A stretch of DNA of 38,094 bases from Microcaldota archaeon (GTDB lineage Archaea; Micrarchaeota; Micrarchaeia; Micrarchaeales; Micrarchaeaceae): contig JAKAUR010000028.1 in assembly GCA_021827665.1 (NCBI GenBank), forward strand, positions 1 to 38,094. Direction: 5' to 3'. This document shows, piece by piece, positions 1,609 through 28,900 of the stretch. Position numbers and translations under genes: made by a program. Within the stretch, counting starts at the first letter, position 1. Each line of letters begins with the position of its first letter. Under the pieces are notes generated by a model, which was given only the letters and a program-made list of their open reading frames with translations, was not told the origin of the DNA and did not search any database.

Positions 1609-2460
1609 ATGGATTTTAACGATATCGTAGAGCATATATTCGCGTCGCGCTGGATATCCGGCACGAGGATGGAAGATGCCATAAAAAGCTCAAAGCATTT
1701 TAACGCGCTGGGCATAAGGACGATAATAAACTACCTAGGGGAAGAAATAACAAAGCAGGAAATGGTCGATGCGACAGTTGACACATATGTACGCCTGATA
1801 CGCTACATAAAGAATTACGGAATAAACGCAGACATATCTGTGAAGCCAACTCAGCTAGGGCTTTCCATATCCGAACAGGAAGCGATGAGCAATTACTCAA
1901 AGCTTGTAAAGGACGCGAGGCTATCCTCGGTATTCGTGTGGCTTGATATGGAGGGAGAACCTACGGTCGACAGCACCATTAAGATGTACCTGTCAGAGGT
2001 TCAGCAGGGAGGTGTGGGCATATGCCTGCAGGCATACCTGAAGCGCACGGAATCGGACCTGCAGCGCATAGCGAAGTCCGGTGGAGTAGTAAGGCTGGTC
2101 AAGGGCGCATACTCCTCCAGCAAGTCCAAGAGCTTTACTACATGGGAGGAGGTAACGCGGAACTACGCAAAACTCATGCAGCTGGCATACGAGCAGTGCA
2201 CAGAGTTTACGATAGCGACTCACGATACCGAGATGATAAGGAAGTCAATCGAGCTTAACAAGAAGTACAAGCGCAAGGTCACCTACGCCATGCTAAAGGG
2301 CATAAGGAACAGGCTTGCAGCAAGCCTTGCAAAGGACAATAAAATGTCGCTCTACGTGCCATTCGGCGAGCAGTGGATATCCTACTCATACAGAAGGCTT
2401 AAAGAGGCAGGGCATCTTAAACTATTGTTGAAATCTTTATTCGAAAGACAGGGTGTTTGA
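1609..2460 (+). CDS. Proline dehydrogenase
   Basis: ProDH/PutA-like motifs 'VRLVKGAY', 'ATHD', C-terminal 'YVPFGEQWISYSYRRLKE'; start may be 1600. Confidence 0.88.
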   Translation: MDFNDIVEHIFASRWISGTRMEDAIKSSKHFNALGIRTIINYLGEEITKQEMVDATVDTYVRLIRYIKNYGINADISVKPTQLGLSISEQEAMSNYSKLVKDARLSSVFVWLDMEGEPTVDSTIKMYLSEVQQGGVGICLQAYLKRTESDLQRIAKSGGVVRLVKGAYSSSKSKSFTTWEEVTRNYAKLMQLAYEQCTEFTIATHDTEMIRKSIELNKKYKRKVTYAMLKGIRNRLAASLAKDNKMSLYVPFGEQWISYSYRRLKEAGHLKLLLKSLFERQGV

Positions 2461-3907
2461 ATTGGCAGATCAGGAAAAAAGAGCCATAACGGTAAAAAAG
2501 TCGGACGACATATCCGAGTGGTACACGCAGGTGATAATAAATTCCGATTTCGTGGATTACAGCGCAGTGTCCGGATGCATAGTATTCAGGCCCTCGGCAT
2601 ATTTCTCATGGAATGCGGTCAAGGAAGCAACAGATTCAATGTTCATAAAGGCAGGGATAAAGAACGCATACTTTCCGCTGCTGATACCGGAAAGATTCCT
2701 CGAAATGGAAAAGGAGCACATAGAGGGGTTTTCGCCAGAAGTGGCATGGGTGACGGAGACCGGCAATTCAAAGCTGAGCGAAAGGCTTGCCATAAGGCCC
2801 ACGTCCGAGACCATAATGTACGACAGCTTTTCAAAATGGATAAGGTCCTGGAGGGATCTTCCGCTCAGGCTCAACCAGTGGAACAGCGTAGTGCGCTGGG
2901 AATTCAAGCATCCGACCCCGCTGCTTAGGAGCAGGGAGTTCCTGTGGAACGAAGGCCATACGGTATTTGCTACCGAAGAAGAGGCAAATGCAGAGCGCGA
3001 CCAGATACTGGGGATATACGCCGAAGTAACAAAAGAATACCTGGCTCTGCCAGGGATAATGGGCCAAAAGACGGATTACGAAAAATTCGCAGGAGGGCAG
3101 GCTAGCTACAGCATAGAGCACCTTCTACCAAATGGATATGCCATTCAGGGCCCAGACTTTCACAACGACGGCCAAAATTTCGCAAAGGCTTTTGACATAA
3201 AGTTCATAGACAAGAACAACGAGCTGAAATACGCGTACCAGAATACATTCGCAATATCCACAAGGGAGCTTGGGGCAATGGTGATGATGCACGGCGATGA
3301 CAGGGGGCTTGTGATACCGCCTAAAATATCAATGATACAGGTAGTCATAGTCCCAATATACAGGGACACGAACAGGGAGTCCATACTGGCATACGCAAAA
3401 AGGATAAGCCACGAACTGGAGAAGCATGCAAGGGTATATCTGGACGACAGGGACGATTATTCCGTAGGCTGGAAATTCAACGAATGGGAGCTCAAGGGAG
3501 TTCCTGTAAGAATAGAAATAGGTTCAAAGGAACTGGAATCGAATGGCGTGGTATTGGTAACTAGGCACGATATGAAGAAGACGCAATACGGTTCATCCAG
3601 CATATGGGAAACTGTAAAAAAAGAGCTTTCACGCGTACAAAGGGAGCTTTACGATCGCGCCCTGCTCTTCATAAAAGAGAAAATAAAGAAAGTCGGTTCC
3701 TACGAAGAGCTAAAGCGTGCGATCTCGGATGGAAACATGGCGCAGGCACAGTGGTGCGGCCAAACGGAATGCGAGCTCAAAATAAAAGAGGAGACCGGAG
3801 CAAAAACGACAAACATGCCCTTTGATGCGCAGAAAAACGTCTCTGGCAACTGCGTTTATTGCGGCAAGCCTTCAAAGCACGTTGTCAACTTCGCCAAATC
3901 GTATTAA
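2453..3907 (+). CDS. proS: Prolyl-tRNA synthetase (archaeal/eukaryotic type)
   Basis: Class II motifs 'RPTSETIMYDSFSKWIRSWRDLPLRLNQWNSVVRWE', 'LLRSREFLWNEGHT', C-terminal zinc-like domain ending in Tyr; GTG (2453) or TTG (2462) start. Confidence 0.96.
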   Translation: MFELADQEKRAITVKKSDDISEWYTQVIINSDFVDYSAVSGCIVFRPSAYFSWNAVKEATDSMFIKAGIKNAYFPLLIPERFLEMEKEHIEGFSPEVAWVTETGNSKLSERLAIRPTSETIMYDSFSKWIRSWRDLPLRLNQWNSVVRWEFKHPTPLLRSREFLWNEGHTVFATEEEANAERDQILGIYAEVTKEYLALPGIMGQKTDYEKFAGGQASYSIEHLLPNGYAIQGPDFHNDGQNFAKAFDIKFIDKNNELKYAYQNTFAISTRELGAMVMMHGDDRGLVIPPKISMIQVVIVPIYRDTNRESILAYAKRISHELEKHARVYLDDRDDYSVGWKFNEWELKGVPVRIEIGSKELESNGVVLVTRHDMKKTQYGSSSIWETVKKELSRVQRELYDRALLFIKEKIKKVGSYEELKRAISDGNMAQAQWCGQTECELKIKEETGAKTTNMPFDAQKNVSGNCVYCGKPSKHVVNFAKSY

Positions 3908-3945: not shown

Positions 3946-4018
3946 AGTCCCGTCGTCTAGTGGCCAAGGACGCAGGGCTTTGGACCCTGCTACGTCGGTT
4001 CGAATCCGGCCGGGACTA
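3946..4018 (+). tRNA. tRNA-Gln (anticodon UUG)
   Basis: Acceptor AGTCCCG/CGGGACT, anticodon arm CAGGG-CTTTGGA-CCCTG, T-loop GTTCGAATCC. Confidence 0.95.
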
Positions 4019-4034: not shown

Positions 4035-4634
4035 ATGATCAAACTCTTAATATTCGACCTTGGAAACGTGCTCCTGAGATACGATGACAGCCAGTATTAC
4101 GAATACGTATCAAAAAAGTACGGGTTCAAATACGAGAAGGTCGCTTCGATAATGGAAAGATACAACACCAAACTATACACCGGCAGGATGAAAAATTCGG
4201 AGTTTTTACGCTCGGTATCCAAATCGTTGCACATCCCAATCGAAAAGCTCGAATTCGAAAAATATTTCATAAAGAAGGCAAAAGTCAATAAAAAATTAAC
4301 GGACTCCGCTTTGAGCCTTAAACGAAAATACAAGATAGTAATTCTCACAAACATATACATGAGCAGATACAGATCGACCCAGAAAGTATTCGATATTTCT
4401 CAATTTGACAGGGTGTTTGCGTCATGCTTTATTGGGATGAGAAAGCCGGACGAAAATGCATACAGGTATGTCCTTAAGAAATGCAGGGTAAAACCAGGGG
4501 AAGCCATATTTATAGACGACCGAAAAGAAAACATAGCCGGTGCGAAAAAAGTTGGCATAAAATCCATACTGTTTAGGAACAATGGATTACTTTTCGAGAA
4601 CCTATCCAAATTGGGAATAAACAGCATCAAATGA
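4035..4634 (+). CDS. HAD-superfamily (subfamily IA) hydrolase
   Basis: 'LLIFDLGNVLL', 'ILTN', 'GMRKPDENAYRYVLKK', 'IFIDDRKENIAGAKKVGI'. Confidence 0.9.
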   Translation: MIKLLIFDLGNVLLRYDDSQYYEYVSKKYGFKYEKVASIMERYNTKLYTGRMKNSEFLRSVSKSLHIPIEKLEFEKYFIKKAKVNKKLTDSALSLKRKYKIVILTNIYMSRYRSTQKVFDISQFDRVFASCFIGMRKPDENAYRYVLKKCRVKPGEAIFIDDRKENIAGAKKVGIKSILFRNNGLLFENLSKLGINSIK

Positions 4635-4638
4635 TTAG

Positions 4639-5505
4639 ATGATATCCTGGTATTGCTTAGTAATCATATCCTCGATAATAATGGGGGCTTCTACCATAAT
4701 AGAAAAGTATGCCCTCAAAAACGAGCACGCAACCTCATTCAGTGCAAGCTTTTCGATAGTCGTCGCTGCATTTTCTCTCGTATTTTTGCCATTTGCAAAA
4801 TTCAACATCAACATTTATGAATTGGCTATAATCTATCTGATGAGCTTACTGTCTACTATTTCTTACCTGTTCAACGCCAGAATATACAAGCACGGGAACA
4901 TATCTGTTTCAACACCGGTCCTAAGCTCACTTCCACAGCTCTTCGTGGTCCTTCTCGCATTCGTATTCCTCGGCGAGAAGCTTACGATATTGCAGTATTC
5001 TGCAATAGCCGTCCTTCTCGTTGCTACATATTTCCTTATCGCGCCGAAAAGCATTAAGAAGTACAAACAATTTGATTCCAAAAAGTACGTTTATCTGCTC
5101 GTTCTCAACACCCTGATAATGGCCTTCGGGGGAATACTCATGAAGTACTTATTGAACCTGACCGTGAATCTGTACGCGATGTTCATACTTTTGGAGATAT
5201 TTATAGCCATAAACATGACCCTGATGATATCTATAAGGTACAATGGCGTAAGGGAGGAATTCTCAAATCTGATAAAAAACAGGAAAATCATATTTTCTAT
5301 AGCAATCCTAAGCCTTCTTTACAGGGTCTTCTATTACGCATCGTTGCAATTGGCATACGTTAGCCTAGCCTCCCCGTTGAGAAATAGCGTATCCGTAATA
5401 ATAACCGTGGTTATAGGAGGGCTGATATTCCAAGAGCGCGGACTCAAACGCAAGCTTGCAATAACTGCAATAATGCTGTTAATGGTATACCTGATAATAA
5501 CATAA
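4639..5505 (+). CDS. EamA/DMT-family permease
   Basis: About 10 hydrophobic segments, 'FLGEKLTILQYSAIAVLLVATYFL' and C-terminal repeat with GxxxFxE-type motif. Confidence 0.8.
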   Translation: MISWYCLVIISSIIMGASTIIEKYALKNEHATSFSASFSIVVAAFSLVFLPFAKFNINIYELAIIYLMSLLSTISYLFNARIYKHGNISVSTPVLSSLPQLFVVLLAFVFLGEKLTILQYSAIAVLLVATYFLIAPKSIKKYKQFDSKKYVYLLVLNTLIMAFGGILMKYLLNLTVNLYAMFILLEIFIAINMTLMISIRYNGVREEFSNLIKNRKIIFSIAILSLLYRVFYYASLQLAYVSLASPLRNSVSVIITVVIGGLIFQERGLKRKLAITAIMLLMVYLIIT

Positions 5506-5511
5506 ATATGG

Positions 5512-6236
5512 GTGCATAAAATGACTGAAAAAATCTATCTCAGGGACTCGTATATGAAGGAGCTGGAATCTGAGGTCGTCAGCTCAGAAAGCGGCAGAAT
5601 CATCCTAGACAGGACAATATTCTATCCTACCGGCGGGGGCCAACCGTGCGATACCGGAATAATATCCACTCTCGACGGGAAAGAATACAAAATAATAGAG
5701 ACAAAAAAGCAGGAGACGATGTGGTACATATAAGCCGGGATGCCGTAAGCCTAAGCAGAGGGGAAAAAGTAATATGCAAGATAGACTGGGAAAAGAGGTA
5801 CATGCACATGAAGCTGCACACGATGCTTCATACAATCGACGGCGTGGTGTACAAGAAATACAAGGGAGAAATAACCGGAGGCCAGATATTCGACAATTCT
5901 GCACGCATGGATTTCGACATACCTGGATTTACTAAAGAGATGCTAAGTTCGATAATCTCGGATTCGCAACTAATCATAGATGAAGGCCACAGGGTTGTTC
6001 CAAAGGAGATAACAAGGGAGGAGGCAAAGAGGATTGGAGGCGTAGCACGTACGGCCCCAGGAGCCGATCTCCTGGAAAAGCTCGATACTGTAAGAATCAT
6101 AGAAATAGAGGGATTCGACTTCCAGCTAGATGGAGGCACTCACGTAGCAAACACTAACGAACTGGGTAAAATATCGCTTATAAAGTTCGAAAACAAAGGT
6201 GCCCATAACAAGAGGGTCGAATTCGGCCTTTCATAA
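5512..6236 (+). CDS. AlaX-type alanyl-tRNA editing protein, encoded in two frames (5512-5733 zero frame, continuing in -1 frame to 6236)
   Basis: 'RTIFYPTGGGQPCDTG' in frame 1; 'DDVVHIS...HMKLHTMLHTIDGVVYK...FQLDGGTHVANTNELG' in frame 3; frames join at A_AAA_AAG (5703-5709). Confidence 0.82.
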
Positions 6237-6635
6237 TCTTTCTGTCTCCCCGTCCGGCTTTTTGTGCTCGTATATGAACACGGCGTGCTTGAGCGCCTTG
6301 AGCGATATGGTCGCACATTTGGCCCTTGCAGGTCCAGGGTCTATGCCTATCAGGTCGACTATAAAATCGAATCCCAAGCTCTCTATTTCGCTTACGCTCT
6401 TGCCCTTTATCGCATCGGTTAGCTTGCTTGCTGTCCCTACGCTTATGGCGCATCCGCTTCCGTCGAAACTTACGTCCGCGACCTTGCCGTCTTTCACCTT
6501 TATGTAAATCGTTATGTCGTCCCCGCATGTTGTATTGTATTCATGACTGCTCGAGTCGCAGTCAGACATGCTTTTCTTGTTGTGCGGGTGTTCGTAATTC
6601 GCTACCAAATCCTCTGCGTACAAATCAAGGCTCAT
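6231..6635 (-). CDS. sufU: SufU/IscU-type Fe-S scaffold protein
   Basis: Three conserved Cys: 'NTTCGDDI', 'DGSGCAISVGTAS', 'ARAKCATIS'; last gene of suf operon. Confidence 0.88.
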   Translation of the reverse strand: MSLDLYAEDLVANYEHPHNKKSMSDCDSSSHEYNTTCGDDITIYIKVKDGKVADVSFDGSGCAISVGTASKLTDAIKGKSVSEIESLGFDFIVDLIGIDPGPARAKCATISLKALKHAVFIYEHKKPDGETERL

Positions 6636-28562: not shown

Positions 28563-28645
28563 CTTATTCTAATTTTTATTCTTTTTGTTTTAAGCACTTC
28601 AGCGACAGCAATCGATAAATATATTTGCGGGAAAATATCCTCTGC

Positions 28646-28900
28646 ATGGTCACTTCAAACATATGCCCCAAGTGCGGCACCAACATGCATTTCGTCGAAG
28701 AGGAGGGAAAGCCATTCTACCAGTGCAACGCATGCGGCTACAAGACTGAGATATTGGGATTGGCCGAGCACGAGTGCAGCAAGTGCGGCTACGACAAGGC
28801 GATAATGTACTACCACGGCATAGTGTACGGAGACGAAGCCCCGCTGGTAATGTACACTTGCATAAAATGCGGCAACGTCGACAGGGAGGGCGTAAGCTGA
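28646..28900 (+). CDS. TFS/RPB9-like zinc-ribbon transcription factor
   Basis: 'CPKCGTNMHF...CNACGYK' and 'CSKCGYDKAIMYYHGIVYGDEAPLVMYTCIKCGNVDREG' (TFIIS-like DE hairpin). Confidence 0.85.
   Translation: MVTSNICPKCGTNMHFVEEEGKPFYQCNACGYKTEILGLAEHECSKCGYDKAIMYYHGIVYGDEAPLVMYTCIKCGNVDREGVS

Follow-up and report, generated by a model that had tools for sequence, protein, structure and literature searches.

The AlaX gene in the window, by which is meant the whole stretch of 38,094 nucleotides analysed here, is one gene lying in two reading frames, with one frame break, and it is continuous in every related genome in which both halves could be read. The break is very probably the result of the loss of one base in or beside a run of A's, natural mutation and assembly error being taken together.

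One AlaX gene in two reading frames

The N-terminal part of the gene is found in the zero frame and the C-terminal part in the -1 frame (Table 1). The two parts match consecutive stretches of the AlaXM model NF040865 and combined they cover positions 1-233 of 234, with the N-terminal Gly-rich subdomain followed by the editing core. Each half alone is far below the 300-bit cut-off of the model. No single open reading frame spans the gene, and a net -1 shift is located at 5703-5712. The two halves are one gene and can be joined only by a net -1 change, as the earlier note had also read them. The gene has the HxxxH and GGTH motifs of the AlaX-M (AlaXp-M) trans-editing deacylases, but it differs from them in being broken by one frame change in the assembly. 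The PDB relatives of the C-terminal part are 2zze and 2e1b.

The start codon of the N-terminal part is ATG 5521, which aligns with the start in the relatives, or GTG 5512. The window sequence reads ACA AAA AAG at 5701-5709, with six consecutive A's (5703-5708), and the zero frame ends in a TAA stop at 5731-5733; the description of this site in the earlier note, as an in-phase A_AAA_AAG followed by that stop, agrees with the sequence. The final codons of the N-terminal part, past the A-run, are out of frame, and homology places the frame change at the heptamer or a few bases downstream. The -1 frame is open to the stop at 6234-6236 with no internal stops. The predicted peptide across the junction of the joined product is ETKKAGDDVVHIS. 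A search for a second copy of the AlaX locus in the same genome found none.

Table 1. Positions of the split AlaX gene, its neighbours and the lysine tRNA genes of the genome
Feature	Position	Strand	Evidence
EamA-like transporter, upstream neighbour	4639..5505	+	PF00892 3e-18
AlaX-M N-terminal part, Gly-rich FYPTGGGQ subdomain, zero frame	5521..5733	+	Pfam PF01411 4.5e-11; NF040865 positions 1-63, 1.5e-20
A_AAA_AAG heptamer, in phase with the N-terminal frame	5703..5709	+	window sequence, alignment
AlaX-M C-terminal part, HxxxH editing core, PF07973 SAD domain, -1 frame	5709..6236	+	NF040865 positions 60-233, 1.9e-55; PF07973 1.2e-11
NifU/IscU-like Fe-S scaffold, downstream neighbour, convergent	6231..6635	-	PF01592 3.1e-22
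tRNA-Lys UUU	L043:15444-15519		
tRNA-Lys CUU	L132:3305-3379		

The stretch 5400-6300, which includes the 3' end of the EamA-like gene, aligns with the related genomes G002 and G003 (blastn to loci L003 and L004). AlaX and the convergent NifU/IscU-like gene share six bases at their stops (6231-6236). A tRNA-Gln(TTG) at 3946-4018 is flanked by the genes for a prolyl-tRNA synthetase (2453-3907) and a HAD-family hydrolase (4035-4634).

The editing-core motif near 6130-6150 is DGGTH, in contrast to the CGGTH of the AlaRS and AlaX structures aligned with it. The Asp of this motif is common to every relative read (L003-L031 and L034), and the Cys of the Zn site may have been replaced by Asp in this AlaX-M group. 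The L034 sequence, from a contig labelled as a Nitrososphaerales MAG (JAGDXK010000029.1), has an AlaX 50% identical to that of the window, also with DGGTH; horizontal transfer or a misbinned contig would be possible origins.

The AlaX locus in related genomes

Sixty related genomes were searched for AlaX and the gene was present in about half of them, the weaker matches being mostly AlaRS. The halves are in one frame in 28 of the 28 relatives with both halves readable (loci L003-L013 and L015-L031, L014 being left out since it is cut by a contig end), and the split is found only in the window. The nearest relative, G003 (82% DNA identity), has seven A's followed by GCAGGT in a single frame, and its peptide TKKAGDDVVHIS is identical to the joined product of the window. 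A close relative with one more A in the run and one continuous frame is the pattern of a homopolymer indel, and it is what the earlier note had itself named as evidence against a programmed shift.

Both G002 and G006, of the same genus, carry the in-phase A_AAA_AAG in an intact gene. The former has six A's and one extra base in the G-rich stretch that follows, and the latter reads GTA AAA AAG. In the alignment G001 has ACG AAG AAA at the site. The intact genes with the heptamer in G002 and G006 indicate a split that is not conserved and a heptamer that is not tied to it, and the conservation of heptamer and split in orthologues, which the earlier note had proposed as a check, was not found. 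A missing base in the nearby G-run, as suggested by G002, was considered and set aside since homology to G003 favours the A-run; the conclusion is the same either way. Independent sequence from the same population was sought by a contig search, in which only other species matched.

Accuracy of the assembly and origin of the break

The comparison with the complete genome G002 covered 844,745 of the 852,456 bases of the genome. In 725 matched genes the comparison flagged fourteen raw frame breaks, the clearest in-gene breaks being those in AlaX and in one phosphodiesterase near a contig end. Three other breaks fall, according to alignments and domain matches, at or upstream of a conserved domain or a likely start; the NUDIX and archease breaks are upstream of the conserved domain, and a break in the window near 28,590 is upstream of a likely ATG at 28,646. 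The result is about two clearly broken genes in 725, with several flagged candidates that are short or of low identity kept outside that tally. A generally error-ridden assembly, with a homopolymer pattern throughout the genome, was rejected on account of the few frame breaks relative to G002. For the most part the assembly keeps the frame correctly, and the AlaX break stands by itself; because frame breaks are rare, the AlaX break cannot be put down to a general rate of homopolymer errors.

The other broken gene, of the type I phosphodiesterase family (G000, C35:11836-12731, locus L069), contains several indels, and its homology is lost past about 12731, close to the contig end. It is intact in G001, G002 and G003, and the break is probably either a real pseudogene or an artefact of the assembly end.

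The dN/dS values of the window against G003 and G002 are about 0.03-0.05 for the C-terminal part of AlaX and 0.05-0.09 for the N-terminal part, and are rough since dS is high. No lesion besides the frame break was found in AlaX. The C-terminal part thus appears to be under purifying selection, and the low dN/dS together with the lack of a second lesion means that the loss is recent, rescued or not real. Unique amino acid changes in the C-terminal part number 12 in the window versus 6 and 8, and in the N-terminal part 1 versus 5 and 4; the excess in the C-terminal part could be a sign of relaxed selection, but the numbers are too small to build on. The AlaRS of the genome is intact (archaeal-type, 892 aa, model positions 4-884, editing region included), and the loss of AlaX should therefore be tolerable to the cell.

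According to the preferred explanation, the gene would be an ordinary AlaX-M trans-editing gene (a Ser-/Gly-tRNA(Ala) deacylase) of a Micrarchaeum-like archaeon, with one base lost in or immediately beside the A-run that encodes lysine-lysine. The apparent slippery heptamer would then be what remains of a seven-A run minus one A, or a native AAA AAG codon pair. The loss may have arisen as a recent natural frameshift mutation, with the gene non-functional in the lineage, or as an isolated consensus error of the assembly; these two origins, which only reads can separate, are treated as one joint class. With homopolymer-indel frameshifts (recent pseudogenes or assembly errors) the window AlaX shares the single A-run lesion, the intact gene in all relatives and the restriction to one genome. 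No difference from that class was seen, and it is the class proposed for the gene.

If the loss of one base is real, RNA polymerase or ribosome could also slip on the A-run in an unprogrammed way and so preserve part of the AlaX activity. In a laboratory drift, bypass was measured for frameshifts in short runs of A, 4A and 5A among them (PMC3812077), and the C-terminal part is without decay. Most recorded natural cases are, however, A-runs of about ten or more (PMC3812077), so that six is short, and the absent decay is equally well explained by recency or by an assembly error. Such a rescue is considered unlikely.

The heptamer and programmed frameshifting

Programmed -1 ribosomal frameshifting at A_AAA_AAG would yield a short product of 70-73 aa and a full-length AlaX. 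The heptamer is correctly phased with the zero-frame stop nearby, the full-length product fits AlaX-M throughout, and the apparent purifying selection on the C-terminal part also speaks for recoding, but none of the 28 relatives has the split. The site conforms to X_XXY_YYZ in the incoming frame, though the same is true of many sites in intact genes: 83 in-phase copies of A_AAA_AAG were found in 76 conserved genes of the same genome (770 conserved ORFs, 222,261 codons). Similarly, 68 genes contain the heptamer in E. coli, with spontaneous shifting at 1e-4 to 1e-5 (PMC9307594). The heptamer at the AlaX site is background and not above chance. When one A was removed in silico from each seven-A run of the conserved ORFs, an in-phase A_AAA_AAN resulted in 30 of 76 cases, A_AAA_AAG accounting for 12 of these; there is thus nothing remarkable in a canonical heptamer at a place where an A-run has contracted.

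Folding was evaluated as MFE against shuffled sequence for nested structures, with pseudoknots outside the model. The 81 nt 3' of the site gave -7.9 kcal/mol versus a shuffle mean of -12.6 (z +1.82), and the 131 nt around the site, upstream sequence included, also folded worse than the shuffles (z +1.44). Within this model no stimulatory structure was found.

The lysine tRNA pool is not the slippage-favouring one of the E. coli type, with a single tRNA-Lys(UUU), since tRNA-Lys(CUU) is present as well; both are also found in G002. The earlier note had compared the site with dnaX of E. coli, where the same A_AAA_AAG is used in the same phase. Slippage on dnaX is due to the weak pairing between AAG and the only tRNA-Lys of E. 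coli (PMC5009743) and depends on stimulators as well, whereas the window genome has tRNA-Lys(CUU) and no stimulator was found at the site. Thermus thermophilus, which has a second tRNA-Lys whose pairing with AAG should be tight, makes use of slippage by the polymerase instead (PMC5009743). By analogy, tRNA-Lys(CUU) would lower the likelihood of slippage in the window genome. It weakens the case and is not an absolute bar, because IS elements with A_AAG motifs occur in bacteria having both tRNA-Lys types (PMC4066793), which counts in favour of recoding. With no conserved split, no downstream structure and a tRNA-Lys(CUU), the parallel with dnaX is weak.

The archaeal precedent that had been cited, the fucosidase gene fucA1 of Saccharolobus solfataricus, is real: a -1 frameshift takes place at A-AAA-AAT, its products have been demonstrated, tandem rare codons and a putative stem-loop accompany the site, and a 2021 review gives it as the one established archaeal case in a cellular gene (PMC8211752). 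The split of fucA1 is itself found in just two of the compared strains and is not conserved in most relatives (PMC8211752). The window AlaX resembles it in three ways: both genes are archaeal, both are split at an A-rich heptamer that is in phase, and both have full-length relatives whose A-run is different by a single A (PMC8211752). It differs in that no structure was detected and in being known from sequence alone, whereas fucA1 has the putative stem-loop, the rare codons and the proven products.

Three points count against the loss of one base. Frame breaks are rare in the assembly and the event is isolated; the position of the break coincides exactly with a canonical heptamer, and joining the halves gives an AlaX of full length; and fucA1 shows that a genuine archaeal frameshift may lack wide conservation. 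Between the two readings put forward in the earlier note, the A-run indel (or a real mutation) is nevertheless favoured and the programmed frameshift is disfavoured, by the continuous frame in all readable relatives and by the lack of detected structure. Programmed frameshifting is judged very unlikely, and we infer that there is no programmed recoding and that the loss is recent.

That the halves are made as separate polypeptides by internal initiation, as a split AlaX or with the C-terminal part as an AlaX-S-like enzyme, is scarcely tenable: the -1 frame stays open on the upstream side, where a start at GTG 5646 would give 196 aa, and AlaX-S enzymes are shorter natural forms (PMC11295145), but 5646-5700 is AlaX-like in the zero frame and not in the -1 frame, and no relative has the split.

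If recoding were true, it would be only the second example of -1 frameshifting in an archaeal cellular gene, by the 2021 review (PMC8211752), and in a gene of translation fidelity: a DPANN AlaX expressed through slippage on A_AAA_AAG despite tRNA-Lys(CUU) would couple tRNA proofreading to frame errors, a prospect that is highly improbable. A canonical heptamer at a gene break should not be taken as evidence of programmed frameshifting unless there is conservation of the split or of a stimulator, because about 40% of the seven-A runs in the genes of this genome acquire an in-phase A_AAA_AAN once a single A is lost.
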